64,000 nt of DNA from Rhizobium sp. PP-CC-3A-592 (GTDB lineage Bacteria; Pseudomonadota; Alphaproteobacteria; Rhizobiales; Rhizobiaceae): contig NZ_QJSR01000002.1 in NCBI RefSeq assembly GCF_003217095.1, positions 186,001-250,000 on the forward strand, in the 5' to 3' direction. Under the pieces are notes generated by a model. It worked only from the letters and a program-made list of their open reading frames with translations, did not search any database and was not told where the DNA came from. Made by a program: the position numbers and the translations under genes. Positions 20,226 through 45,988 of this stretch are shown in pieces. The stretch's first letter is position 1. The number at the start of each line of letters is the position of its first letter.

Positions 20226-20570
20226 ATGCAGGGCATTCTTCACGAAGAGCCTTCTATCCTTCAGTTCATGCTGATCACCTGCGTGCTCGGCGGTTGGACC
20301 GCCTGGCGCACGGGCAAGAGCGTCGCGGACGGCTGGCAGACCTATACGACCGTCGTGGTCTACACGCTGCTGCTCGGTCTCGGCATCCGTTTCGTGCATC
20401 ACGCACTGTTCAACGGCACGATGTTCAGCCTGCACTACTACGTCGTGGACACGATCATTCTTTTGCTGTTTTCTACCGCTGGGTTCCGTTTCTACCGGAC
20501 ACGCCAAATGGTCAGCAGCTACTACTGGCTTTACGAGAAGGCATCGCCTTTCTCGTGGAAGAATAAATAA
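20226..20570 (+). CDS. DUF6867 family small membrane protein of the liv operon
   Basis: A 114-residue protein with three hydrophobic segments (about residues 14-30, 42-60 and 70-88), recognised as the DUF6867 type that accompanies liv genes in Rhizobiales. It has a C-terminal [23 protein letters not shown]. The gene sits 39 bp after livF in the same direction, with TTTCTGAC-type spacing and a modest ribosome-binding site. Function is unknown. Because it is conserved with the transporter it may assist its assembly or regulation, but nothing in the sequence proves it. Confidence 0.78.
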
Positions 20571-22321: not shown

Positions 22322-23236
22322 TTACGACCTGATCAGAGCATTCGTTGCCTTCACTGCGGCCGACGCCCGGTTTTCCACGCCCAGCTTCACATAGATCTGC
22401 TCGAGGTGTTTGTTGACGGTGCGGGCGGAGAGGCCGAGGATTTCGGCGATGTCTCGGTTGGATTTGCCCTTGGCGATCCAGACGAGGACTTCCGCTTCGC
22501 GCATCGTCAGGGAGAAATGCCGGCGCAGGGCTTCCTCGTCGGTGGTCTGGCTGACGGCGGTGAGGCGGAACAGGTATTCGTCGCTGCCGATGGTGCCGAG
22601 GAAGGCGAGTTGCAGAACGGGTATGCCGGCATTTTCTATGATCAAGGGAGCGTCCTTGCCAAACGTGCGGTCGCGCAGGAAGAGGGCGATCTGGTCTGAG
22701 ACGGCGTCCAGCCCGTCCTCCGAACCTATAGCGGTATCGACCAGCCGGGTCGCCTGGGGCGTCGACCAGTGCAGAGCGCCATTGCCGCGCACAGCGAGCA
22801 GATGCCGGCCGGCCGCATCCAGTGCGACGCGGGCGCTCTGGGTGGAGCGGGCGTTGCCGAGGTGGACGCGGATGCGGGCGCGCAGTTCATCGATGTTGAT
22901 GGGTTTGGAGAGGTAATCCACGCCGCCGGATTCGAGCGCGTGCACGATGTGCTCGGTCTCCGTCAGCCCGGTCATGAAGATCACAGGCACGGGGGCGATG
23001 TCGGCAAGCGCCTTCAGTCGCCGGCAGGTGTCGAATCCGTCCATCTCCGGCATGACGGCGTCCATCAGCACGATGTCGGGCGTGATCTTGTCGACGACCT
23101 TCAGGGCTGCCGGGCCGGAGGTGGCGATCAGCACGGAGAAGCCGGATTGCTCCAGCGCATCGGTGAGGAAGCCGAGGGTTTCCGGGCTGTCGTCGACGAT
23201 CAAAACGATGTCGCGGGGGCGGGGGGCGTCACTCAC
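22322..23236 (-). CDS. NarL/LuxR-type response regulator
   Basis: A 304-residue transcription factor with a receiver (acidic D15/D16, phospho-acceptor D59 in IVLMDAVMPEMDG, T in FMTG, K in LSKPI) and a C-terminal LuxR helix-turn-helix (about residues 243-304: LTMREAEVLVWIAKGKSNRDIAEILGLSARTVNKHLEQIYVKLGV). A middle region of about 110 residues is unusually long for a NarL-type protein. Its ATG overlaps the stop of the hybrid kinase gene by 4 bp, so it is the obvious partner. A 7-2-7 palindrome typical of NarL-class binding lies in front of urtA, which makes urea genes the likely target (inference). Confidence 0.9.
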   Translation of the reverse strand: MSDAPRPRDIVLIVDDSPETLGFLTDALEQSGFSVLIATSGPAALKVVDKITPDIVLMDAVMPEMDGFDTCRRLKALADIAPVPVIFMTGLTETEHIVHALESGGVDYLSKPINIDELRARIRVHLGNARSTQSARVALDAAGRHLLAVRGNGALHWSTPQATRLVDTAIGSEDGLDAVSDQIALFLRDRTFGKDAPLIIENAGIPVLQLAFLGTIGSDEYLFRLTAVSQTTDEEALRRHFSLTMREAEVLVWIAKGKSNRDIAEILGLSARTVNKHLEQIYVKLGVENRASAAVKATNALIRS

Positions 23237-26200
23237 CGGTGGTCTCCTTCCGGCGGCGGGTCGCTTCGCACGGCGGCGGTTTCGAGGAAGGTGGCGTAGC
23301 CGGCCATGTCGAAGGCCTGGACATAGGCACGCGCGGCGTCGGCAAAGGGCAGGTGGGCCGCGTCGCGCGCGAGCTCGGCGAGCTTGGCCTCGATGCCTCT
23401 GATATAGCCGATTTCGCCCAGCCGGATCAGCTCCTCGATATGGGATGCTTCGGGCACGAGGATGGGCTGGGGTTCTGCGGTGTCGGTTGGCGGTGCGGGG
23501 ACATCATGCGTCCATTCGAGGCCGAGATTGACCGCGATCTTGTCCCGGAGCTGGCGGATGACGAAGGGCTTGGCGAGTGTATCGTCGTGGCCGGTGTGCT
23601 GGCTGGCCAGACTGCCATCGCCAATATTGGCCGACAGCATGATGATGGGCGCCGTCTGCCCATGCTCGCGCAGGCGCGAGACCAGTTGCCAGCCGCTCAT
23701 GCCGGGCATGGAGATATCGACCAGAAACAGATCGGGCTCGATGCCCTCGATCAGCGTCAGGCATTCGGCGCCGCCAATGGCGGTGAGGACGACGAAGTCG
23801 AGCGGGATCAGCACCTCGCGCATCAATTCGCGGTGATCCTCGTTATCGTCAACCACGACGATGGTGCGGCGCGGGCCGGCATAGCCGGTGACTTCCAGTT
23901 GGGGCGGGGGAACGGCGGCGGGCCGGGCAACAGTCGACAGCATCAGCCGGACACGAAACGTCGAGCCCTTGTCGCGCTCGCTCGTCACCAGAATTTCGCC
24001 GCCCAGCGTCTCCGTCAGGAGACGGGTGATCGTGAGGCCGAGGCCGAGGCCCGGCATGGGGCGGATCGTTTCGGCTTCGCCGCGCTGGAACGGCTCGAAG
24101 ATGCGCGGGCGGTCGGCCTCCGAAATCCCGCGGCCGGTGTCGGTCACGGTGAAGGTCGCGACCTGGCTGCGATAGGCGACCTCGAAGCGCACGACACCAC
24201 GATCGGTGAACTTGACGGCGTTCGACAGCAGATTGACGAGGATCTGGCGCAGGCGCTTCTCGTCGGTGCGCACGTGCGTCGGCAGGCCGGGCGCCCGGAT
24301 ATGCTCGAAGGCGAGACCCTTGGCCTGGGCCTGCGGGCGGAACATATCGACGATCTGGTCGAGAAAATCCTGGATATTGATCTCGTTGGAGAACACCTGC
24401 AGCCGGCCGGCCTCGATGCGGGAGATGTCCAGCAGGCCGTCGATGAGGCCCGAGAGATGATCCGCACTGCGCTTGATGACGCGGATGGCCGCCTGCCGGG
24501 GGGCGGGAATGGTCTCGTCACGCTCGAGGATCTGGGCATAGCCCATGACGGCGTTGAGCGGCGTGCGCAACTCGTGGCTGAGGCCGACGACATAACGGCT
24601 CTTGGCGCGGTTGGCGGCCTCGGCGGTCTCCTTGGCATATTGCAGGGCGGCGTCGGTCTTCTTGTGGGCGGCGATCTCCTTGAGGAGCAGGGTGTTCTGG
24701 CGGGACGATTCCTCCTCTGCCACGAGGCGGCTGTCATGGGCGAGCACATAGAACCAGCAGACGACGCCGGTGACGACGGTGAAGACGAAGAAGACGATGC
24801 CGATGGTGCGGTTGATCACCTCGGCGGCGATCGGCGAGGCGGAGCCGGTCTGGTAGGCGATCATGGCGAGGATGGCGCCGATGGCGGAGACGGCGATGAC
24901 GACGGCGGTGGCATAGCGGCCGAGCCGGCTGGCGAGCGCCGCGACGATGCGTTCGGGCAGGAGCCTGCGGGCAACGGCCGCCGTCTGCGCGTTCAGCCGC
25001 GCATGCGGCTTGCAGATGTCGTGGCAGCGGCTGTCGAGCGAACAGCAGAGCGAACAGATCGGCGCGGCATAGGCCGGGCAATAGGCCATGTCTTCCGGCT
25101 CGAACGGATGCTGGCAGATGGAACAGGTGATCGTGCTCAGGCTCTTCCAATGCGCGCGCGGCTTGCGGGCGAGATAGTAGCGGCCGCGGGTGGCATAGGC
25201 GAGGGCGGGGGAGATGAGGAAGGCAATGAGCGTGACATAGGTCGACAGCGACGCCACGACCGTGCCGAAGAGCCCGAAATGCGCGGCGAGCGCCACGCCG
25301 GCAGAGGTGAACATGGCGCCGAGGCCGACCGGGTTGATATCGTAGAGATGGGCGCGCTTGAACTCGATGCCGGGCGGGGAAAGGCCGAGTGGCTTGTTGA
25401 TGAAGAGATCGGCCGAGAGCGTGCAGAGCCAGGACATGGCGATGATGGAGAACACGCCGAGCGTGGCTTCGAGCAGCTTGTAGATGCCGAACTCCATGAG
25501 GAGCAGGGCGATGGCGACGTTGAACACCAGCCAGACGACGCGGCCGGGATGGCTGTGGGTCAGGCGGGAGAAGAAGTTCGACCAGGCGAGCGAGCCCGCA
25601 TAGGCGTTCATCACGTTGATCTTCAGCTGCGAGACCACCACGAAGGCCGCCATGAGCACGAGGGCGGCCGTGTCGTTGGGGATCATGTAGCCGAAGGCGG
25701 CGAGATACATGCGCGAGGGGTCCGCGGCTTCGCCGGCAGGCACGCCGGTCGACAGCGTGAGAACGGCAAGGAACGAGCCGGCGAGCAGCTTCGGCACGCC
25801 CACCACCACCCATCCTGGACCGGCCAGGAAGACCGCGAAGCGGTGCCGCCACTTCTTTACGCCCTCCGGCGGCAGGAAGCGCAGAAAATCCACCTGTTCG
25901 CCGATCTGCGGCATCAGCGCCAGAATGACGGCAGAGGCGGCGCCGAACTCGATCAGGTCGAAGGGTGCTGCACCGCCGACCTGCGCATTCGAATGGCCGA
26001 TGCCGGCGAAGGCCCGCCAGAGGTCGAACTTCTCCCAGTCCAAAAAGGCGATGAAGAAGAACGGCAGGATGTTGAGCACGATCCAGAAGGGCTGCGTGAT
26101 CAACTGGAAGCGCGAGATGAGCTGGACGCCGTAGATGACGAGCGGGATGACCACGACGGCGCTGATGATGTAGCCGATCCAGAGCGGAATGCCGAAGGCG

Positions 26201-26676
26201 AGGTTCAGCGCGCCGGTCATGATCGATGCCTCGATGGCAAACAGCATGAAGGTGAAGCTGGCATAGATCAGCGAAGTGATGGTGGAGCCGATATAGCCGA
26301 AGCTCGCGCCGCGTGTGAGCAGATCGATATCCACGCCGTGGCGGATGGCGTAGCGGCTGATCGGCATGCCGATGACGAGCATGGCGATGGCGGCGGCGAT
26401 GATGGCATAGAACGCGTTCGTCGTGCCGTAGGAGAGGGTGATCGTGCCGCCGATTGCCTCCAGTGCCAGAAAGGAAATCGCGCCGATGGCGGTCTGGGAA
26501 ATGCGGCTTGCCGAAAAGCGCCGGGCGCTCTTGGCGGTGAACCGCAGGGCATAGTCCTCCAGCGTCTGGTCTGCGACCCAGCGATTGTACTCGCGCCGGA
26601 CCGGAATGATGCGCTGCCGGGCTGTCATTTCGAGGTTTTCATGGTGCGGAGCAACATCCTTGTCGGCAAGCGACAT
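23233..26676 (-). CDS. NCS1-type permease fused to hybrid histidine kinase and receiver
   Basis: A 1147-residue sensor. Residues about 20-500 are a polytopic NCS1-like module (12 hydrophobic helices; SLAYGTTNAF- and MPISRYAIRHGVDIDLLTRGASFG-like segments) of the nucleobase/allantoin/thiamine transporter type. Residues 518-555 hold eight cysteines (C518, C521, C533, C541, C544, C545, C551, C555), a likely zinc- or metal-binding knot. Two more helices follow, then a coiled coil and a kinase: H701 in GLSHELRTPLN, N-box VNLLSNAVKFTD, G boxes TDTGRGIS and GLGLGL. A receiver (D987 in LFLVDISMPG) ends the protein. The start could also be ATG 26742. It overlaps the response regulator by 4 bp and is divergent from urtA. 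Confidence 0.88.
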   Translation of the reverse strand: MSLADKDVAPHHENLEMTARQRIIPVRREYNRWVADQTLEDYALRFTAKSARRFSASRISQTAIGAISFLALEAIGGTITLSYGTTNAFYAIIAAAIAMLVIGMPISRYAIRHGVDIDLLTRGASFGYIGSTITSLIYASFTFMLFAIEASIMTGALNLAFGIPLWIGYIISAVVVIPLVIYGVQLISRFQLITQPFWIVLNILPFFFIAFLDWEKFDLWRAFAGIGHSNAQVGGAAPFDLIEFGAASAVILALMPQIGEQVDFLRFLPPEGVKKWRHRFAVFLAGPGWVVVGVPKLLAGSFLAVLTLSTGVPAGEAADPSRMYLAAFGYMIPNDTAALVLMAAFVVVSQLKINVMNAYAGSLAWSNFFSRLTHSHPGRVVWLVFNVAIALLLMEFGIYKLLEATLGVFSIIAMSWLCTLSADLFINKPLGLSPPGIEFKRAHLYDINPVGLGAMFTSAGVALAAHFGLFGTVVASLSTYVTLIAFLISPALAYATRGRYYLARKPRAHWKSLSTITCSICQHPFEPEDMAYCPAYAAPICSLCCSLDSRCHDICKPHARLNAQTAAVARRLLPERIVAALASRLGRYATAVVIAVSAIGAILAMIAYQTGSASPIAAEVINRTIGIVFFVFTVVTGVVCWFYVLAHDSRLVAEEESSRQNTLLLKEIAAHKKTDAALQYAKETAEAANRAKSRYVVGLSHELRTPLNAVMGYAQILERDETIPAPRQAAIRVIKRSADHLSGLIDGLLDISRIEAGRLQVFSNEINIQDFLDQIVDMFRPQAQAKGLAFEHIRAPGLPTHVRTDEKRLRQILVNLLSNAVKFTDRGVVRFEVAYRSQVATFTVTDTGRGISEADRPRIFEPFQRGEAETIRPMPGLGLGLTITRLLTETLGGEILVTSERDKGSTFRVRLMLSTVARPAAVPPPQLEVTGYAGPRRTIVVVDDNEDHRELMREVLIPLDFVVLTAIGGAECLTLIEGIEPDLFLVDISMPGMSGWQLVSRLREHGQTAPIIMLSANIGDGSLASQHTGHDDTLAKPFVIRQLRDKIAVNLGLEWTHDVPAPPTDTAEPQPILVPEASHIEELIRLGEIGYIRGIEAKLAELARDAAHLPFADAARAYVQAFDMAGYATFLETAAVRSDPPPEGDHR

Positions 26677-26782
26677 CGCGGGAGGGCTTGAGGTTCTGTT
26701 GATCTTGAAGGCTCTGTCGGCGCCTGTCCAGACAGACCGCATGTTTCCCGCGGGAACGCACGCGACATGTGCAGTTCCCGCC

Positions 26783-26798
26783 TACGTCAATTGACGTA
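26783..26798. promoter_or_regulatory. Perfect 16-bp palindrome, NarL-like 7-2-7 site
   Basis: TACGTCAATTGACGTA reads as heptamer TACGTCA, AT, and inverted heptamer TGACGTA. It is the spacing used by NarL/LuxR-type response regulators (7-2-7). It lies between the permease-kinase (start 26676) and urtA (start 26890), 91 bp before the latter, and the response regulator is encoded by the same divergent unit. A second inverted repeat, TGTGCA-T-TGCACA (26799-26811), abuts it. Direct sequence observation. Function is inferred. Confidence 0.62.
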
Positions 26799-26889
26799 TG
26801 TGCATTGCACAAGGCCTGTCGGATAGTCCCGTTGCGACCCGTTAACACTTTAATAGGAAACGGCGCCAAAGAACGAGAGGGGTTCTCCG

Positions 26890-28179
26890 ATGTCATTCAA
26901 ATCCCATACCTTAAGCGCATTCCTGGCCTGCGCTCTGGCAACCACGGCATTTTCCGCCGTCAACGCGGCTGACGACACCATCAAGGTCGGCGTCCTGCAC
27001 TCGCTGTCCGGCACGATGGCCATTTCCGAGACGACGCTGAAAGACGCCATGCTGATGCTCATCGAGGAGCAGAACAAGAAGGGCGGCGTTCTCGGCAAGA
27101 AGCTCGAAGCCGTCGTTGTCGATCCCGCGTCCGACTGGCCGCTGTTTGCCGAAAAGGCGCGCGAGCTGATCTCGGTCGACAAGGTTGCTGCTGTGTTCGG
27201 CTGCTGGACGTCCTCGTCGCGCAAGTCGGTTCTGCCGGTGTTCGAAGAGCTGAATTCCATCCTCTTCTACCCCGTCCAGTATGAGGGCGAAGAGTCCTCG
27301 CGCAACATCTTCTACACGGGTGCCGCGCCGAACCAGCAGGCCATCCCGGCCGTCGATTACCTGATGGCCAATGAAGGCGTCGAGCGCTTCGTGCTCGAAG
27401 GCACCGACTACGTCTATCCGCGCACGACCAACAAGATCCTGGAAGCCTACCTGATCTCCAAGGGCGTCGCCAAGGAAGACATCATCGTCAACTACACGCC
27501 GTTCGGCTTCTCGGACTGGCAGACGGAAGTCGCCAAGATCAAGGAATTCGGCTCGGCCGGCAAGAAGACCGCCGTCGTCTCCACCATCAACGGTGATGCC
27601 AACGTTCCCTTCTACAAGGAACTCGGCAACCAGGGCATCAAGGCCACCGATATTCCGGTCGTCGCCTTTTCTGTCGGTGAAGAAGAACTCGCCGGTCTCG
27701 ACACCAAGCCGCTCGTCGGCCATCTCGCCGCCTGGAACTACTTCCAGTCCGTCGATGCGCCTGCCAATGCCGAATTCATCAAGCAGTGGCATGCCTATAC
27801 CAAGAACGACAAGCGCGTGACGAACGACCCGATGGAAGCGGCCTATATCGGCTTTTCCGCCTGGGTGAAGGCCGTCGAGGCTGCCGGCACGACCGACACG
27901 GATGCCGTTCTCGACACGATCATCGGCACCTCCGTTCCGAACCTTTCGGGCGGCTACTCCACCGTCATGCCGAACCACCACATCACCAAGCCCGTGCTGA
28001 TCGGCGAAATCCAGGGGGATGGCCAGTTCGAAATCGTCCAGCAGACCCCCCAGGTCGTCGGCGACGAATGGTCGGACTTCCTGCCGGACAGCAAGGACCT
28101 GATCTCCGATTGGCGCAAGCCCATGTCCTGCGGCAACTTCAACGTTGCAACGGGCAAGTGCGGCGGCAAGGGTTCCTGA
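26890..28179 (+). CDS. urtA: Urea ABC transporter substrate-binding protein UrtA
   Basis: A 429-residue periplasmic binding protein for urea (UrtA clade of the amide-urea family). The signal peptide is MSFKSHTLSAFLACALATTAFSAVNA. The mature N-terminus IKVGVLHSLSGTMAISETTLKDAMLMLIEEQNKKGG is the family signature, followed by CWTSSSRKSVLPVFEELNSILFYPVQYEGEE and, at the C-terminus, DSKDLISDWRKPMSCGNFN. Start is supported by GAGAGG upstream. It is the first gene of the urt operon. A 346-bp structured gap follows before urtB, a usual arrangement that allows extra binding protein. Uptake of urea feeds the urease encoded downstream. Confidence 0.95.
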   Translation: MSFKSHTLSAFLACALATTAFSAVNAADDTIKVGVLHSLSGTMAISETTLKDAMLMLIEEQNKKGGVLGKKLEAVVVDPASDWPLFAEKARELISVDKVAAVFGCWTSSSRKSVLPVFEELNSILFYPVQYEGEESSRNIFYTGAAPNQQAIPAVDYLMANEGVERFVLEGTDYVYPRTTNKILEAYLISKGVAKEDIIVNYTPFGFSDWQTEVAKIKEFGSAGKKTAVVSTINGDANVPFYKELGNQGIKATDIPVVAFSVGEEELAGLDTKPLVGHLAAWNYFQSVDAPANAEFIKQWHAYTKNDKRVTNDPMEAAYIGFSAWVKAVEAAGTTDTDAVLDTIIGTSVPNLSGGYSTVMPNHHITKPVLIGEIQGDGQFEIVQQTPQVVGDEWSDFLPDSKDLISDWRKPMSCGNFNVATGKCGGKGS

Positions 28180-28525: not shown

Positions 28526-30133
28526 ATGCAGCTGACATCGCGCACGCTTCGGATCGTTCTTCTTCTCCTCGGTCTCGGCCTCGCCTTTGCGACCGGCGCG
28601 CGGGCGCAGGATGCGCTGAAACCGCTGGTCGATGGGCTGGGCGCCACGGCGTTTCCGCAGAAGGTGGAGGCTGTGAAGCAGCTTGCCGCGACCGGCGACC
28701 CGAAGGTGCCCGAGATCCTCGAAAAGTTGAGTGCTGGCGCGCTGTTTGCGCCGAAGGCGGGCGGCGCGGTCTATCTCGTCGAGGGCGACGTGGTGTCCGA
28801 TCCGGTCACGGGCGCGCCTGTCGAGGGTGTGACTGCGGCCAGCCTGCAGAAGATCCGGCTGAACAATATGCTGCGCGGCGCCATCGGCGACGCCATGAGC
28901 CAGCTGACCCTGCTCAGCCCCGACCGGAACGCCCGGCTTTCCGCCGCCCGGGCCCTGCTTGCGAGCGGCGACACCGCCAATCTCGCGCTGCTCGACGGTG
29001 CGCTGGCCAAGGAGGGCGATGCCGAGGTCAAGGCGGCGATGGAATCCGCCCGGGCCGTGCTGATCCTGAAGACGGATGCGAGCGCCGAGGACAAGAAGGC
29101 GGCGATCGAGAACGTCGCAGCGCGCGGCGACCGCGGCGCGCTCAATATCCTGACTGCGGCGCTTGCCACCGCTCCGCCGGACCTCGTACCAGTGATCCAG
29201 AGCCGTATCGACGGCATCGCCAGCAGCCTTGCCGTCTGGGATGTGGTGCAGAACGTCTGGTACGGGCTGTCGCTCGGCTCGGTGCTGCTGCTCGCCGCCA
29301 TCGGCCTGGCTATCACTTTCGGCGTCATGGGCGTCATCAACATGGCGCATGGCGAGATGGTGATGCTCGGGGCCTACACGACCTATGTCGTGCAGCAGAC
29401 GGTCGCCTCGTTCGCGCCCGGTCTCTCCACCTTCTCGCTCGCCTTCGCGGTGCCGATCGCCTTTCTCTTTACCGGGCTTGTCGGCGTCGCCATCGAGCGC
29501 GGCATCATCCGCTTTCTCTATGGCCGGCCGCTCGAGACGCTGCTCGCCACCTGGGGCCTGTCGCTGATCCTGCAGCAGACCATCCGCACCATCTTCGGGC
29601 CGACCAACCGGCAGGTGGACAATCCGAGCTGGATGTCGGGCACGTTCGATTTCGGCGGTCTCGCCATCACCTGGAACCGCATGTGGATCATCGTCTTCTC
29701 GCTTGCCGTGTTCCTGGCATTGCTGACGCTGCTCAAGCGGTCGCGCCTCGGCCTGCAGATGCGCGCCGTGACGCAAAACCGGCGCATGGCCTCCTCCATG
29801 GGCATCCGCACGCCGATGGTGGACGCGATGACCTTCGGCCTCGGCTCCGGCATTGCCGGCATCGCCGGGGTGGCGCTCAGCCAGATCGACAACGTCTCGC
29901 CCAATCTCGGGCAGAACTACATCATCGACAGCTTCATGGTTGTGGTGTTCGGCGGCGTCGGTAACCTCTGGGGCACCTTCGTCGGCGCCATGACGCTGGG
30001 CATCGCCAACAAGTTCCTCGAGCCCTATGCGGGTGCAGTGCTCGGCAAGATCCTGATCCTCGTCCTCATCATCCTGTTCATCCAGCGGCGGCCGCGCGGC
30101 CTGTTCGCCCTCAAGGGGAGGTCGATCGAATAA
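28526..30133 (+). CDS. urtB: Urea ABC transporter permease UrtB
   Basis: A 535-residue membrane permease. The first about 235 residues are an N-terminal exported region with a signal-like start (MQLTSRTLRIVLLLLGLGLAFATGARAQ) and alpha-helical repeats with SAARALLASGDTANLALLDGALAKEG-like units. The C-terminal part is the LivH-like permease (QNVWYGLSLGSVLLLAAIGLAITFGVMGVINMAHGEMVMLGAYT), with the cytoplasmic loop RAVTQNRRMASSMGIRTPMVD. This two-part layout and length are typical of UrtB. It ends with TAATG shared with urtC, so translation is coupled. The substrate is urea. Confidence 0.94.
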   Translation: MQLTSRTLRIVLLLLGLGLAFATGARAQDALKPLVDGLGATAFPQKVEAVKQLAATGDPKVPEILEKLSAGALFAPKAGGAVYLVEGDVVSDPVTGAPVEGVTAASLQKIRLNNMLRGAIGDAMSQLTLLSPDRNARLSAARALLASGDTANLALLDGALAKEGDAEVKAAMESARAVLILKTDASAEDKKAAIENVAARGDRGALNILTAALATAPPDLVPVIQSRIDGIASSLAVWDVVQNVWYGLSLGSVLLLAAIGLAITFGVMGVINMAHGEMVMLGAYTTYVVQQTVASFAPGLSTFSLAFAVPIAFLFTGLVGVAIERGIIRFLYGRPLETLLATWGLSLILQQTIRTIFGPTNRQVDNPSWMSGTFDFGGLAITWNRMWIIVFSLAVFLALLTLLKRSRLGLQMRAVTQNRRMASSMGIRTPMVDAMTFGLGSGIAGIAGVALSQIDNVSPNLGQNYIIDSFMVVVFGGVGNLWGTFVGAMTLGIANKFLEPYAGAVLGKILILVLIILFIQRRPRGLFALKGRSIE

Positions 30134-31311
30134 TGTTCACGACCCGGCTCATCCACGCCCATGAGAAGAAGGTCTTGGCGCTCGCCGCTCTGATCCTCTT
30201 CATCGCCATCGCGGTTCCTGCCTCCAACCTCCTGCTCGATCCCGGCAACCCGCTGCACGTGCCCTCCCATGTCGTGCCGCTGTTCGGGAAGTATCTCTGC
30301 TACGCACTGCTTGCGCTCGCGCTCGATCTCGTCTGGGGCTATTGCGGCATTCTCTCGCTCGGCCACGGCGCCTTTTTTGCGCTCGGCGGCTATGCCATGG
30401 GCATGTATCTCATGCGCCAGATCGGCGCGCGCGGCACCTATGCCAACCCGATCCTGCCCGACTTCATGGTGTTCCTGAACTGGAAGGAGCTGCCCTGGTA
30501 CTGGACCGGCTTCGATTCCTTCCCTTTCGCTGCGCTGATGGTGCTGCTGGTGCCCGGCGCGCTCGCCTTCGTCTTCGGCTGGCTCGCCTTCCGCTCCCGC
30601 GTCACCGGCGTCTACCTCTCGATCATCACGCAGGCCATGACCTATGCGCTGCTGCTCGCCTTCTTCCGCAACGAGATGGGCTTTGGCGGCAATAACGGCC
30701 TCACCGACTTCAAGGACATCATCGGCTTCAATATCCAGGCGCCGGAAACGCGCGCGACCCTGTTTGCCATCACCGGCATCGTTCTTGCATTCGTGCTGCT
30801 CCTCTCCTCGGCCATCGTGCAATCCAAATATGGCAAGGTGCTGATCGGGGTGCGGGATGCGGAAAGCCGGACGCGCTTTCTTGGCTACCGGGTCGAGAAC
30901 ATGAAGCTCTTCATCTTCACCTTCTCCGCCATGATCGCAGGCGTCGCCGGCGCGCTCTACGTGCCGCAGGTCGGCATCATCAATCCGGGCGAATTCGCAC
31001 CCGCCAACTCGATCGAGGTCGTCATCTGGACGGCGGTCGGCGGACGGGGCACGCTGATCGGGCCGATCATCGGCGCGGTGCTCGTCAATTTCGGCAAGTC
31101 CATCTTCACCGCGGCCTTTCCGGAGTTCTGGCTGTTTGCGCTCGGCGCGCTCTTCGTCGCCACCACGCTGTTCCTGCCGAAGGGCATCGTCGGCACCATC
31201 CAGCAGGGCTTCGCCTCGCGCCGGGACTACAAGGCGGCAGACGAAGCTGAGAAGGGGCGCACCGTTTCGACCCGCGACCCTGTCGCCGTCCAACCTCAAG
31301 CCGCGGAGTGA
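30133..31311 (+). CDS. urtC: Urea ABC transporter permease UrtC
   Basis: A 392-residue LivM-like membrane permease: ALALDLVWGYCGILSLGHGAFFALGGYAMGMYLMRQ, the loop VRDAESRTRFLGYRVENMKLFIFTFSAMIAG, and IEVVIWTAVGGRGTLIGPIIGAVLVNFGKS. It pairs with UrtB to form the urea pathway in the inner membrane. The start overlaps the urtB stop by one base, and its stop overlaps the possible GTG start of urtD. Length matches the family. Expression is presumably under nitrogen control, but no sigma-54 site with clear spacing was found upstream of urtA. Confidence 0.94.
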   Translation: MFTTRLIHAHEKKVLALAALILFIAIAVPASNLLLDPGNPLHVPSHVVPLFGKYLCYALLALALDLVWGYCGILSLGHGAFFALGGYAMGMYLMRQIGARGTYANPILPDFMVFLNWKELPWYWTGFDSFPFAALMVLLVPGALAFVFGWLAFRSRVTGVYLSIITQAMTYALLLAFFRNEMGFGGNNGLTDFKDIIGFNIQAPETRATLFAITGIVLAFVLLLSSAIVQSKYGKVLIGVRDAESRTRFLGYRVENMKLFIFTFSAMIAGVAGALYVPQVGIINPGEFAPANSIEVVIWTAVGGRGTLIGPIIGAVLVNFGKSIFTAAFPEFWLFALGALFVATTLFLPKGIVGTIQQGFASRRDYKAADEAEKGRTVSTRDPVAVQPQAAE

Positions 31312-31316
31312 GCGCC

Positions 31317-32069
31317 ATGGACCAGAAGATCACCAACAGCCTCCTTTATCTCGATGGCGTCTCGGTTTCCTTCGACGGCTTCAAAGCGCTGAATTCCTTG
31401 TCTTTCGTGGTCGCACCCGGAGAACTGCGCGCGATCATTGGGCCGAACGGCGCCGGCAAGACGACGATGATGGATATCATCACCGGCAAGACGCGGCCCG
31501 ACACCGGCACCGTCTATTTCGACGGGCAAATCGACCTGACCAAGAAAGACGAGGCCGATATCGCGCAGCTCGGCATCGGCCGCAAATTCCAGAAGCCGAC
31601 CGTGTTCGAAAGCCATACGGTCTGGGACAATATCGAGCTGGCGCTGAACCGCAAACGCGGCGTCTTCGCCACGCTGTTCTACACGCTCACGCCCGCCGAC
31701 AAGGCGCGGATCGAGGAGATCCTTGAGACCGTGCGCATGACCGCCCGCAAGGACCATCTCGCCGGGAGCCTGTCGCACGGACAGAAGCAGTGGCTGGAGA
31801 TCGGCATGCTGCTGGCGCAAGAGCCGAAGCTGCTGCTGGTGGATGAGCCCGTTGCCGGCATGACGGACGCGGAGACCTCGGAGACGGCGATCCTGCTGAA
31901 GGAGATCGCCAAGACCCGCTCCGTCGTCGTCGTCGAGCACGACATGGGCTTCATCCGCGACCTCGGCGTCAAGGTCACCTGCCTTGCCGAGGGATCGGTT
32001 CTGGCCGAGGGCTCGATCGACTTCGTGTCGAACGATCCCAAAGTCATCGAAAACTATCTGGGGCGGTGA
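31317..32069 (+). CDS. urtD: Urea ABC transporter ATP-binding protein UrtD
   Basis: A 250-residue ATPase. Walker A GPNGAGKTT, Q-loop IGRKFQKPTVFESHTVWDN, signature GSLSHGQKQWLEIGM (the H in place of the usual G is typical of UrtD), Walker B LLLVDEPVAGMT, and the switch histidine in VVVVEHDMGF. I chose ATG 31317, with GGAG eight bases upstream. GTG 31308 overlapping the urtC stop is the alternative (adds MSA). It works with UrtE on the UrtBC permeases. A 195-bp gap carrying a palindromic repeat follows before urtE. Confidence 0.94.
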   Translation: MDQKITNSLLYLDGVSVSFDGFKALNSLSFVVAPGELRAIIGPNGAGKTTMMDIITGKTRPDTGTVYFDGQIDLTKKDEADIAQLGIGRKFQKPTVFESHTVWDNIELALNRKRGVFATLFYTLTPADKARIEEILETVRMTARKDHLAGSLSHGQKQWLEIGMLLAQEPKLLLVDEPVAGMTDAETSETAILLKEIAKTRSVVVVEHDMGFIRDLGVKVTCLAEGSVLAEGSIDFVSNDPKVIENYLGR

Positions 32070-32264: not shown

Positions 32265-32960
32265 ATGCTGACCGTCGACAACATCAACCTCCACTACGGC
32301 GCAGCGCAGGCCCTGCGTGGCGTCTCCATCACGGCGCCGATGGGCAAGATCACCTGCGTGCTTGGCCGCAACGGCGTCGGCAAGACCAGCCTCCTGCGCG
32401 CGGTTACCGGCCAGCATGCGACGAGTGCCGGCAAGGTGACCTTCAACGACACGGTCATGAACGGCATGGCACCCTATAACCGGGCACGCCTCGGCGTCGG
32501 CTTCGTGCCGCAGGGGCGGGAGGTGTTTCCGCTGCTCACGGTCAAAGAGAACTTGGAGTCCGGCTATGCGCCCGTCGCCCGCAAGGATCGCTTCGTGCCG
32601 GAGGAGATCTTCGCGCTGTTCCCGATCCTCAAGTCCATGCTCGGCCGGCGCGGCGGCGATCTTTCCGGCGGGCAACAGCAGCAGCTCGCCATCGGCCGGG
32701 CGCTCGTCACGCGCCCGAAGATCCTCGTGCTGGACGAGCCGACGGAGGGCATCCAGCCATCGATCATCAAGGATATCGGGCGTGCGATCCAGTATTTGCG
32801 GGATTCCACGGGGATGGCGATTTTGCTTGTGGAACAATACCTTGACTTCTGCCGCGAGCTTGCAGACCATGTCTACATCATGGATCGCGGAGAGATAGTG
32901 CATGAAGGCCCGGCCGAAACGCTCGACACGCCGGAAGCCCGACGGCACCTCACGGTTTGA
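32265..32960 (+). CDS. urtE: Urea ABC transporter ATP-binding protein UrtE
   Basis: A 231-residue ATPase, the second nucleotide-binding subunit of the urea importer. Walker [11 protein letters not shown]-loop [19 protein letters not shown], signature [16 protein letters not shown], Walker [16 protein letters not shown]-loop [24 protein letters not shown]. Starts at ATG 32265 after GAACGAGGTGCCCC. Its TGA overlaps the TTG that could start ureD, and the ureD ATG is 12 bp after the stop, so urease genes are linked directly to transport. Length matches the family. Confidence 0.95.
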
Positions 32961-33858: not shown

Positions 33859-34161
33859 ATGAACCTAACTCCCCGCGAAAAAGACAAGCTGCTGATCTCG
33901 ATGGCGGCCATGGTAGCGCGCCGCCGGCTGGAGCGCGGCGTCAAGCTCAACCATCCCGAAGCCATCGCGCTGATCACCGATTTCGTGGTCGAGGGCGCGC
34001 GCGACGGGCGTTCGGTCCCCGACCTCATGGAGGCCGGCGCCCATGTCATCACGCGCGCGCAGGTGATGGAGGGGATCCCCGAGATGATCCACGACATCCA
34101 GATCGAGGCGACGTTCCCGGATGGAACGAAGCTCGTTACCGTTCACGAACCCATCCGCTGA
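33859..34161 (+). CDS. ureA: Urease gamma subunit UreA
   Basis: A 100-residue structural subunit of urease. It starts [35 protein letters not shown] and contains [29 protein letters not shown] and [23 protein letters not shown], both invariant in the family. Length is exact for a separate gamma subunit. The ATG lies 33 bp after ureD and the start is fixed by the conserved N-terminus. It assembles with UreB and UreC into the (UreABC)3 enzyme. A DUF1272 gene follows immediately. Confidence 0.96.
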
Positions 34162-41394: not shown

Positions 41395-44300
41395 CTACTC
41401 CGCAGCCAGTGCCGGATGCGTGACCACGGTGCCTCCAACCGCGCGCAGTGTGCCGGGGGAGGTGCGGCTTTCCAAGCGGTCGAGGCGGGTCTGCAAGGCT
41501 TCGATGGTTTCGGACTGCTCGGCGAGCTTTTCGGTCAACACCACGTTCTCCAGCGGCACGGTCTCGGCCTCCTTCTTGCCCACCAGGCGGCCGAAGGACC
41601 AGCCGAGGAGGCGGGAGAGGTCGTCCATGATCAGGAAGAACGAGGGCACGACGACCAGCGACAGCACCGTGGAAACGATGATGCCGCCGATGACGGCGAT
41701 GGCCATGGGCGCGCGGAACGAGCCGCCTTCGCCGACGCCGAGCGCCGATGGTAGCATGCCGGCCGACATGGCGATGGAGGTCATGATGATCGGCCGGGCG
41801 CGCTTGCGGCCCGCCTCCACCATGGCATCGACCCGTTCCATGCCGTGCCGCTTCATCTCGATGGCGAAATCGACCAGCAGGATGGCGTTCTTGGTGACGA
41901 TGCCCATCAGCATGAGGATGCCGATGAGGACGGGCATGGAGAGCGCATTGTTGGTGACGATCAGGCCGAGCGCGACGCCGCCGATGGCAAGCGGCAGCGA
42001 GAACAGGATCGTGAAGGGCTGGATGACGTCCTTGAAGAGGAGGATGAGCACCACGAGCACCAGCAGCAGGCCGAGCAGCATGGCATGGACGAAGCCGGAC
42101 TGCATTTCCGCCTGGACTTCGGCGTCGCCGCTTTCGAGGAAGCGGACGCCTTCGGGCAAGCGGATCTCGTTTGCCGCCTGCTTGAAACGGTCGGAGGCCG
42201 AGTTGAGCGCGACGCCAACGGGAAGGTCCGCGCCCATGGTGACGACGCGGAAGCGGTCGTAGCGCTTGATGGAGCTCGGGCCTTCCGAATAGGAAATATC
42301 GGCGACGCTGGAGATGGGCACGAGCGCGCCGGAAGCCGTCTGGATCTTGAGGTTGCGGATGGCGGCGAGATCGGTGCGCAGGCCGGTGTCGATCTGCACG
42401 CGGATCGGGATCTGCCGGTCGTCGAGCGAGATCTTGGTCAGCGCCGCGTCAATATCGCCGATGGTTGCGACACGCACGACGTCGGAGAGTTGCGACGTCG
42501 TGATGCCGAGGCGCGACATGCGGTCTGCAAGCGGGCGCAGCTGCAGTTCCGGGCGGGGCAGGGCGCCATCCGGGCTGACATTGGCGAGCGTCGGCTCGTC
42601 GCGCAGCTTGGCCTCCAGCAGACCGACAGCTTCGTTCAGGGCAGCGTCGTTGTTGGAAAGAAGATTGAAGGCAAGGTCGCGCTCGCCGCGGTCGTTGAGT
42701 TTGAGAACGCGAACGTCCGGGATGGAATGGATGGCTGCGAAAACCTGGGCCTCGATCTGCGACTGCGGAATGATGCGGCCGGCCGGCGGCAGCTTCGGCA
42801 TATATTGCCCGACCAGCGGCAGATTGCCGAGCAGCGTATTGACCAGCTTGTTGACGAGCGAATGGTCGAGCTTGTCCAGCATGACGGTGATGGTGGCACG
42901 GCGCAGCTCCAGATCGCCCTTTGGCGAGGCGCCGCCGAGCACGAAGATGCCTTCGACGCCCGGGAAATCCTTGATCCGGTCGTAGATTTCCGCGCTCGTC
43001 CGGTCGGTATCCTCCAGCATGGCATCCGGCGGCAATTCGACCGAGAGCACGATGCGCGAGGCATCTTCCGGCGGCAGGAAGCTGCCGGGCACGGTGAGAA
43101 GCAGCATGACCGAGCCGACGAGGAAGGCGAGCGCCACGGACAAGGTGAGGTAGCGCATGTACCAGCGCCGCGTGGTGGCGGCGACCAGCCAGGTGTAGCC
43201 GCGCATGAACAGGCCGTCACGCTCTTCGCCATGCCCGTCGCCATCGCCGGAGCGCATGAGATAGGCCGCCATAACAGGCGTGATCAGGCGGGCGACCATG
43301 AGCGAGAAGAAGACGGACACGGCGACCGTCAGGCCGAACTGGATGAAGTATTGTCCGGGAATGCCCGGCATGAACGACACCGGCACGAAGACGGCGATGA
43401 TGGTGAAGGTGGTGGCGATGACGGCAAGGCCGATCTCGTCAGCCGCCTCGATCGACGCCTTATAGGGTGATTTCCCCATCTTGATGTGGCGGGCGATATT
43501 CTCGATCTCCACGATCGCATCGTCCACGAGGATGCCGGTCGCAAGCGTCAGGGCCAGGAACGAGACGAGGTTCAGCGAGAAGCCGAGCAGGTCCATGATC
43601 CAGAAGGTGGGGATGGCCGACAGCGGCAGAGCGAGGGCGGAAATCAGCGTCGCGCGCCAGTTGCGCAGGAACAGCAGCACGACGGCGACCGCCAGCAGCG
43701 CGCCTTCGATCAGCGTGTGAAGGGCAGCTTCATAGTTGCCATAGGTGAAGTAGACGCTGTCGTTGATCAGCTGGATCGACACGCCGGGATGGGCGGCGCG
43801 GACGGTGTCCAGCGACTTTGCGACGGTTTCGGCAACGCTGACCTCGCTGGCGCCCTTGGAGCGGAAGACGGCGAAGGTGACGACGGGCGTGCCGTCGAAG
43901 CGCGAAAAGCTCTTCGGCTCCTCGTAGGTATCGGTGACGGTGCCGAGTTCCGACAGGCGCACGAAGCGGCCGTTCGGCATGGCGATCATCGTATCGGCGA
44001 GCGCCGAGACCGAGCGGGCGTCGCCGAGCGTGCGGATCGCCTGTTCGCTGCCACCGATCTGCCCGCGGCCGGAGCCGAGGTCGGTGTTCATCTTGCGCAG
44101 TTGCGCGTTCACGTCGGTCGCGGTGATGCCGTAGGAGTTCAGGCGGCTTTCGTTGAGCTCGACACGCACCTCGCGGTCGGCGCCGCCGTAGCGGTCGATG
44201 CGGCCGATGCCGGTCTGGCCCTGCAGCGAGCGCTTCACCGTGTCGTCCACGAACCAGCTGATTTCCTCCAGCGTCATGTCCGGCGCGGAGACGGCGAAGG

Positions 44301-44718
44301 TCTGGATCGCCTGCCCCTCGACATCGACCTTGGCGACGATCGGCTCCTCGATGCCGGCCGGCAGGTCGCCGCGGATGCGGTCGATCGCGTCCTTGGTGTC
44401 CTGCACCGCCTGGTTGGTCGGGATCTCGATCTCGAACTGGACGGCGGTCGTCGACAGGCCGTCGGTGATGGTGGAGGTGACGTGCTTGACCCCGGCGATG
44501 CCGGCCACGGCATCCTCGATCTCCTTGGTGACCTGCGTTTCCAGCTCGGCAGGGGCTGCGCCGCTCTGCGACACGGCGATGGAGACGATGGGCACGTCGA
44601 TATTGGGGAAGCGCGTGATCGGCAGCGTGTTGAACGACTGATAGCCGAGGAACATCAGCAGCACGAAGGTGAGGATCGGTGCGATCGGATTTCGAATGGC
44701 CCAGGCCGAAAAGTTCAT
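41395..44718 (-). CDS. RND efflux transporter permease (AcrB/MexB-like, Hydrophobe/Amphiphile family)
   Basis: A 1107-residue inner-membrane proton-driven exporter. N-terminal [27 protein letters not shown] opens the first helix. The proton-relay aspartates are in [17 protein letters not shown]. The second half repeats the layout with [29 protein letters not shown]. The porter loops ([27 protein letters not shown]) are standard for heavy-metal or multidrug RND. I chose ATG 44718, since the upstream codons are not RND-like. The adaptor gene lies 13 bp upstream. No outer-membrane channel gene is present. Confidence 0.92.
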   Translation of the reverse strand: [1107 protein letters not shown]

Positions 44719-44731
44719 GGCGGGTCGATCC

Positions 44732-45988
44732 TCAGTTGGTGGCCGTCTTGTCGATGGGGACTGCTGCCTTGACCGGGGTGATGCGGTCGCCGTCGCGGAC
44801 ATAGGCGCCGGCCTTGGCCACGACCTCGTCGCCATCGCTGAGTCCAGAGAGGATCTCGATATAGCGGCCGTCCTGAATGCCCGTCTCGACGCGTGCCATC
44901 TCGACCACGCCGTCGCGCACCTTGCGCACCACGGTTTCGGTCTTGCCGCTGGTCACGGCGGTGAGCGGCAGGGCCAGCGCCTGCTTTTCCTCGATCGTGA
45001 TGTCGGCGTTCGCATACATGCCCACACGCGCCCTTTCCGGCTCGGCGATGCTGATGAAGACGGTGCCGAGGCGGGTGTCGGCGTCTACGGTCGGCGAGAT
45101 CAGGCGGATCGTGCCGTTGAGCGTGACGCTGCTATCTGCAAGCTTCAGCTTGGCCTTCTGCCCGACTGCGAGCTTCAGGAGATCGCTTTCCGAGACGTCT
45201 GCCCGCATTTCCACCGCGCCGTCGCGGATGATGGTGAAGAGCGGCTGGCCGGAGCCCGCGGCAATGGCGCCGACCTTGGCTGTCCGTGCCGAGACCACGC
45301 CGGCGACGGGCGCCTTGATGACGGTGCGGGCGAGGCGGAGATCGACATCGGAGATCTGGGCTTCGACGACCTTGATGTCGGACTGCGCGACCGCGATCAG
45401 TTGCTCGGCGGAATTGACGCGGGCGAGCGCGGCGGCAGCGGCCGCTTCCGTCTGGTCGGCAAGCGCTGTCGAGACGGAGCCGGCTTCCTTGAGCTTGGCA
45501 TTGCGGGCGGAGACGCGGACGGCCTCCTGCGCATTGGCCTGTGCTTCCACCAGCTGCGCCTGGTACTGGGCAAGCGAGGCGCGAGCCCTGGCAAGGTTCG
45601 CCTCGTTCTCGCTGCGGGTCAGCAGCAGAGCGTCGTCGTTCAGTGTGGCCATGGTGCCGTCGGCCTTGACGGTATCGCCGATATCAACGGCGAGACTGCG
45701 GATCGACAGGCCTTCGACCAGCGGCTGCACGAAGGTTTCCTCGACGGCCTGGATGGTTCCCGTTGCGATGACACGGTCGATGACCGTCCGTATTTCGGCT
45801 TTGGTGACGACGATGGAGGGGTAGGCGGTGTCGGGCGCTGTTTGTGTCTCCGTTTTGGCCGGCGTTGCGTCCTGCGCCAGGGCCTCGCGCGTCAAGACGG
45901 GCGCCGCCGCCAGCAGAAGCGCTGTCAGAAGTGTGGGAACCCGCGCAGCCGTGCGCATGCCGTTTGCAAACGTACCTTCACCAGCCAT
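44732..45988 (-). CDS. RND efflux periplasmic adaptor subunit
   Basis: A 418-residue membrane-fusion protein with an N-terminal signal peptide (TALLLAAAPVLTREALAQ). The lipoyl half-motifs and helical hairpin are clear: FVQPLVEGLSIRSLAVDIGDTVKADGTMATLNDDALLL and ARTVIKAPVAGVVSARTAKVGAIAAGSGQPLF. The hairpin contains RASLAQYQAQLVEAQANAQEA, a coiled coil. The ATG at 45988 has GAGG upstream. It pairs with the RND permease 13 bp downstream. No repressor gene lies next to it, so regulation is not visible. Confidence 0.91.
   Translation of the reverse strand: MAGEGTFANGMRTAARVPTLLTALLLAAAPVLTREALAQDATPAKTETQTAPDTAYPSIVVTKAEIRTVIDRVIATGTIQAVEETFVQPLVEGLSIRSLAVDIGDTVKADGTMATLNDDALLLTRSENEANLARARASLAQYQAQLVEAQANAQEAVRVSARNAKLKEAGSVSTALADQTEAAAAAALARVNSAEQLIAVAQSDIKVVEAQISDVDLRLARTVIKAPVAGVVSARTAKVGAIAAGSGQPLFTIIRDGAVEMRADVSESDLLKLAVGQKAKLKLADSSVTLNGTIRLISPTVDADTRLGTVFISIAEPERARVGMYANADITIEEKQALALPLTAVTSGKTETVVRKVRDGVVEMARVETGIQDGRYIEILSGLSDGDEVVAKAGAYVRDGDRITPVKAAVPIDKTATN

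Follow-up and report, generated by a model that had tools for sequence, protein, structure and literature searches.

The window, by which we mean the whole stretch of 64,000 nucleotides analysed here (Rhizobium sp. PP-CC-3A-592, contig NZ_QJSR01000002.1, positions 186,001 to 250,000), carries on its minus strand a gene for a transporter-like hybrid sensor kinase (23233–26628) and a gene for a response regulator (22322–23236), the two overlapping by 4 bp at the kinase stop (23233–23236). The kinase frame extends from 23233 to 26742 in the ORF list, and an earlier note, made from the letters of this DNA, had read from it a single protein of 1147 residues starting at 26676. The single chain stands, but the length does not: this start is probably 16 codons too early, as relatives share the start MTARQR at 26628, which gives a protein of 1131 amino acids. 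Pfam places on the one chain a HisKA (phospho-acceptor) domain (PF00512, 24406–24603), a HATPase_c domain (PF02518, 23938–24267) and a receiver domain (PF00072, 23536–23862), all on the minus strand, the composition of a hybrid histidine kinase. The regulator, of 304 amino acids, is of the NarL/FixJ type, with a receiver and a GerE (LuxR/NarL-type) DNA-binding domain (Pfam Response_reg and GerE); its receiver did not match the NarL model above that model's cut-off. The ORF list and Pfam thus bear out the two genes, their overlap and the NarL/LuxR-type regulator as the earlier note had given them. Since the regulator gene is kept in the locus in all of the best 80 of 579 database relatives, this arrangement is not due to chance. 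Opposite the kinase gene, a frame of 1150 codons is open on the plus strand (23239–26691), probably a by-product of high G+C content.

The pair is divergent from urtABCDE and then ure genes, as had been noted before, all of them on the plus strand. The genes urtA (26890–28179, coding for the binding protein of a urea ABC transporter), urtB (28526–30133) and urtC (30133–31311) score above the cut-offs of TIGR03407, TIGR03409 and TIGR03408, respectively. The labels urtD (31308–32069) and urtE (32265–32960) come from the order of genes in the operon and from similarity to relatives, annotated urtD and urtE genes occupying the same places in S. meliloti, and the label ureA (33865–34161, urease gamma subunit) from its position downstream of urtE and from similarity; the tblastn match to ureA in an Acinetobacter lwoffii plasmid (locus L217) sits within an annotated urease cluster. 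A possible -10 element of the urtA promoter, GATAGT (26822–26827, plus strand), comes from a consensus over 65 urea loci, while generic sigma-70 and terminator scans of 26600–26920 found nothing, GATAGT included. Elsewhere in the window, a DUF6867 protein (20226–20570) is encoded inside a liv-type amino acid transporter operon, a place that is kept in many relatives, and a large RND-type efflux protein (ACR_tran, Pfam) is encoded at 41398–44835.

The sensor part of the kinase

The first 490 or so residues of the kinase (25159–26628, minus strand) form a polytopic domain that the earlier note had called NCS1-type. Neither NCS1 profile (PF02133, TIGR00800) matched the window protein when Pfam and NCBIfam were searched; residues 1–650 matched no Pfam transporter family at all, SLC5/SSS included; and a sensor profile of 11 relatives had no match among PDB sequences at E<=10. 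An Acinetobacter relative (P0003) reached 19.7 bits against the cytosine permease model, the cut-off of which is 326. As profiles gave no direct assignment, the domain was approached by way of its predicted fold and of a sequence intermediate between it and known NCS1 proteins. A structure model of residues 1–652 (50 sequences; pLDDT 75.7, pTM 0.76) was compared with NCS1 transporters, as the earlier note had proposed, and these proved to be its nearest folds: among 403 Foldseek matches, ranks 1–3 are Mhp1 and ranks 4–5 CodB (E 2.6e-7 to 5.9e-6, with 2.6e-7 for Mhp1 and 2.2e-6 for CodB), at 15–17% identity over the aligned part and TM-scores by query of 0.45–0.47. The urea transporter DUR3 takes rank 6, and SLC5 members come only below NCS1. 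The intermediate is a standalone relative of 497 residues from another genome (L202), which matches the sensor profile (E 4.4e-39) as well as PF02133 (E 3.6e-9, above the cut-off) and TIGR00800 (E 2.5e-16, below the cut-off), and thereby ties the sensor to NCS1 transporters by homology. Because of the fold matches and this intermediate we call the fold NCS1-like. The NCS1 label is therefore retained for the domain as modelled, which lies beyond the reach of current NCS1 profiles, but not in the sense of a direct profile match. In the locus of the standalone relative (L202:8949-13981), a nitrilase-family gene comes next, and then genes for a UrtA/AmiC-like binding protein and an AmiR-type regulator.

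The polytopic domain is followed by a segment with eight cysteines (25012–25125, minus strand; C502, C505, C517, C525, C528, C529, C535 and C539, numbered from MTARQR), then by two helices, the histidine kinase and the receiver, the order that had been described before. An alignment of 50 relatives shows each of the eight cysteines to be invariant and the permease domain, with many invariant columns, to be highly conserved too. At E<=1e-10 the sensor part has no second match among the proteins of the window's genome, the remaining 26 matches covering the kinase or the receiver only. Among the matches listed, the nearest named genome by the sensor part is that of Ferranicluibacter rubi (99% identity); the viral contigs searched held no relative of the sensor.

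Urea and amide genes beside the pair

The neighbourhoods of related kinases were compared in two sets: the best 80 of 579 confirmed GTDB relatives, a choice that makes this set lean to Rhizobiaceae and their kin, and a class-/phylum-wide set of 62 loci, from which six same-family places and the standalone L202 were left out. The best 80 of 579 comprise 65 urea loci, 12 amide loci, two cut by contig ends and one with neither kind of gene; 76 of them have a urtA-like gene, which is divergent in every case (76/76). The wider set, in which 60 of the 62 loci have the regulator gene, is made up of 43 amide loci, most of which have a formamidase in a UrtA-like ABC operon, 14 urea/urease loci, three with neither and two cut by contig ends. 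This co-occurrence check, which the earlier note had itself put forward, speaks against a theme of urea only. A purine or pyrimidine product, also suggested there as a signal, finds no support in the neighbouring genes; the one exception is an Azospirillum plasmid where xanthine dehydrogenase-like genes adjoin one copy of the pair.

By the identity of their UrtA to that of the window, the loci form two groups. Forty-one loci have a UrtA 36–44% identical to that of the window, and 40 of these carry a formamidase or AmiF-type gene and none urease genes; in the seven loci where UrtA is 67–78% identical, urease genes are present in five. Pfam domains found in the scanned representatives are FmdA_AmdA, CN_hydrolase, an FmdB-type zinc ribbon and AmiS_UreI. 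Among 398 sampled genomes, the kinase is present in 38 of the 39 with fmdA (the exception being G144) and in 51 of the 172 with UrtA of either kind. The 121 UrtA genomes without kinase imply that urt can have other control, although absences are of lower confidence as few candidates were scored per genome (at most four in the phylum-wide UrtA and fmdA searches, at most three in the kinase search). The window's genome has no fmdA at the search threshold. Fisher values from this comparison are 3e-40 and 7e-20, both ignoring shared ancestry.

On a tree built by a quick method from 86 sensor domains, with branch support by SH-aLRT, the urea and amide labels switch seven times by parsimony, at least five times on well-supported branches; shuffled labels need 28.8 changes for the amide label. 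In each of four sampled genomes (G188, G255, G276, G408) there are two kinases, of which the first adjoins an amide operon and the second urea/urease genes. When sensor residues of urea- and amide-kinases are compared, the clearest trend is at positions 327, 401 and 402, with four independent pairs on supported branches, too few for significance. Two loci (L195, L197) encode a variant kinase of 885–894 amino acids without receiver and without LuxR-type regulator; their neighbours are a REC-HisKA-HATPase protein (Pfam check for L197) and AmiS/UreI-type, FmdA-type and FmdB-type genes. The A. lwoffii plasmid mentioned above, pALWED1.2, encodes beside a complete-looking urease cluster a 535-residue protein (L217:7950-9557) in which the permease domain is present, the cysteine segment is shortened and the kinase is missing.

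A candidate operator upstream of urtA

Dyad search and matrix scans point to a candidate operator between the divergent genes, TACGTCAATTGACGTA (26783–26798), two inverted heptamers with a 2-bp spacer. Its consensus, ATACGTCANNTGACGTAT, is a palindrome in the style of the 7-2-7 inverted heptamer arrangement described for NarL (PMC7419079), and the window has one exact copy of it, about 100 bp upstream of urtA, which is the sole exact copy in its genome. The dyad search covered 66 of 88 loci, all with less than 1 kb between kinase and urtA, after 22 similar GTDB loci had been set aside; the dyad TACG-N8-CGTA occurs in 55 of these 66 gaps, compared with 17 for the best dyad in three shuffled sets. 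For the matrix scans, the threshold was the highest score of 110 shuffles and each locus was scored with the matrix from the other operon class. By this measure 58 of 72 loci lie above the threshold (24/28 urea, 34/44 amide), as do none of 38 control urtA promoters, these being scored with the full all-site matrix and the positives with the cross-class matrix. The controls consist of 34 of the 121 UrtA genomes without kinase, hand-picked from the listing, and four remote urtA genes of kinase genomes. Seven of the 14 loci below the threshold have a variant palindrome of Bradyrhizobium/Afipia type.

Loci in which the two divergent units have been separated indicate which of them the palindrome accompanies. 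There are 30 such GTDB loci, mostly of related rhizobia, with 1–8 kb of other genes between kinase and urtA; the site lies 94–159 bp upstream of the start of the UrtA match in all 30 (by a matrix trained solely on amide loci) and is also found near the kinase in one. In G172 and G188, where some 11 kb lie between kinase and urtA, it is just over 200 bp ahead of urtA. The genome with L078, a locus classed as having neither kind of operon, has a urtA about 12.6 kb away, and an exact site stands 187 bp upstream of this gene. The candidate site, so compared, belongs to the uptake operon. Kinases by urease genes (L188, L189, L193, L196, L200, L201) have a passing site upstream of the kinase in two of six cases (L193, L200), and L188 and L193 have a site upstream of urtA. 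In L207 and L208 the site is at the kinase only, the pattern searched for being absent by urtA, and L195, L197, L209 and L216 show no site.

Exact sites are rare, being present in 10 of 398 genomes: eight are kinase genomes, each with the site at the urt/kinase promoter, and the others are G270 and G372; the reversed control pattern occurs in one of the 398. Two near-matches in the window's genome, C5 (one mismatch) and C9 (two mismatches), both inside predicted ORFs, were rejected: the reversed control pattern is equally common, so that they do not exceed chance. From the centre of the window's site to GATAGT there are 31.5 bp; relative to the start site so predicted, the site would then lie near -43.5, a position resembling that of a NarL site at -44.5 (PMC7419079). 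Comparative evidence thus gives the regulator what is typical of the NarL/FixJ type, an inverted-repeat DNA site adjoining the operon it is thought to regulate, and the pair very probably controls the divergent urt operon.

Interpretation and comparison with known systems

The reading that we favour, and hold to be fairly likely, is that of a transporter-derived urea/amide sensor pair that switches on the matching uptake operon via the palindrome. The NCS1-like membrane domain would have as its ligand urea or else formamide or another short-chain amide, and the cysteine module, with the two helices after it, would pass the effect of binding on to the kinase. The kinase, to judge from its domains and the order of the fused parts, would phosphorylate its own receiver and the NarL-type regulator. 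Once phosphorylated, the regulator is predicted to bind ATACGTCANNTGACGTAT about 100 bp upstream of urtA, a target promoter well supported comparatively, and to act as an activator of the divergent uptake operon. The target would be urtABCDE-ure here and, in many other genomes, a UrtA-like ABC operon with formamidase genes. Published physiology fits this model, fmd expression in M. methylotrophus being described as responding to formamide and urea. The earlier note had proposed that the protein senses urea, a purine or pyrimidine product or transport flux and controls the urt-ure genes; the type of sensor and, through the operator, the control of urt hold up, and urea as the sole theme does not.

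It seems unlikely that the pair responds to what the urea and amide pathways yield (ammonium or nitrogen status) in place of the amide itself, ammonium or flux then acting on the permease domain. Ammonia is set free through both types of operon, the fmd cluster of M. methylotrophus is described as also repressed by high ammonia, and Ks-Amt5 is a transporter-fused kinase able to sense ammonium (PMC5764959). The fold of the domain is, however, NCS1-like and not Amt, the pair is tied specifically to urea and amide genes (57 of 62 loci), and a single exact operator in the window's genome is unlike what a general nitrogen regulator would have. The invariance of the eight cysteines could be taken to mean that sensing, for example of nickel, of zinc or of the redox state, lies with their module and that the permease domain is a membrane anchor only. 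Urease requires nickel, which would suit such a sensor, whereas nitrilase-family amidases, which are among the amide-type partners, are not nickel enzymes. Nickel alone therefore does not explain both operon types and was set aside as their common signal; the strong conservation of the permease domain itself also argues against a mere anchor, and we regard a cysteine sensor as very unlikely. Hardly to be expected is a sensor of larger ureides or nucleobases (allantoin, hydantoin, uracil), the typical NCS1 substrates, with the urea genes as the end of the pathway. The nearest solved folds do transport hydantoins (Mhp1) and cytosine (CodB), and the Azospirillum plasmid copy has its xanthine dehydrogenase-like neighbours, but the 43 amide-type loci have formamidase or related genes, which do not belong to purine or pyrimidine breakdown.

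Beyond the urea/amide sensor pair itself, a wider proposal can be made, which we would sooner doubt than accept: that an NCS1-like fold became the receptor in a widespread family of transceptors that bind urea and formamide directly, that standalone members such as that of L217 may be unrecognised urea/amide permeases, and that one module and one operator could have been moved repeatedly between urea and formamide operons.

Kinases fused to a transporter are seldom met with, and not many of them have been studied. CbrA of Pseudomonas, an SLC5-STAC transceptor kinase carrying an SLC5 and a STAC domain, is likewise a transporter domain fused to a histidine kinase, with a LeuT-type fold in both (PMC13022988). 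The likeness to CbrA drawn in the earlier note holds for this architecture but no further: Pfam finds in the window protein no SLC5/SSS domain of the kind that characterises CbrA, CrbS and RpuS, the sensor being NCS1-like, and a cysteine module occupies the linker where CbrA has STAC, with a NarL-type partner and urea/amide operons as further differences. Ks-Amt5 of Candidatus Kuenenia stuttgartiensis also uses a nitrogen-nutrient transporter domain as the sensor of a fused kinase, but with an Amt fold and ammonium as what is sensed, and the available part of its description gives no receiver and a partner regulator yet to be found (PMC5764959). Mhp1 and CodB, the closest solved folds to the sensor domain, are by contrast standalone NCS1 transporters without kinase, and only distantly similar in sequence. 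The NarX/NarL and NarP systems of Escherichia coli share the GerE-type regulator and the 7-2-7 inverted heptamer site and differ in sensor, ligand and heptamer sequence. AmiC/AmiR likewise controls the use of short-chain amides, and L202 adjoins an AmiR-type gene, but that system consists of a binding protein and an RNA-binding antiterminator, as described in PMC13209695, and not of a kinase and a DNA-binding regulator.

In the open-access literature, most subscription journals lying outside the search, we found no account of an NCS1-fused kinase or of a kinase controlling urt/fmd genes, and the available part of PMC13209695 mentions no histidine kinase for a urt-fmd or urt-ure cluster of this arrangement. 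An amide role has already been proposed for the second Bradyrhizobium urt cluster (PMC3098086). Kinases with an unnamed sensor domain are listed in partly available accounts of Dechloromonas aromatica, where one of 1131 amino acids and a 308-residue CheY-like protein are encoded beside UrtA (PMC2907700), and of Ectopseudomonas guguanensis, where a kinase-LuxR pair lies by urtABCDE and fmdA (PMC13296017); because of size, order and neighbours, we infer that both belong to the present family. The pair is thus a candidate regulator for formamidase clusters, and since a ligand hypothesis (urea and small amides), a partner and a DNA site are all defined, the whole path from ligand to promoter is testable.

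Relatives of the sensor are also carried by plasmids. On Klebsiella pneumoniae plasmid p52813_IncFIB (L214), a sensor relative of 48% identity is divergent from urtABCDE and formamidase, an arrangement present on many Klebsiella plasmids, and 342 of the 524 plasmid records with a match are from Klebsiella.
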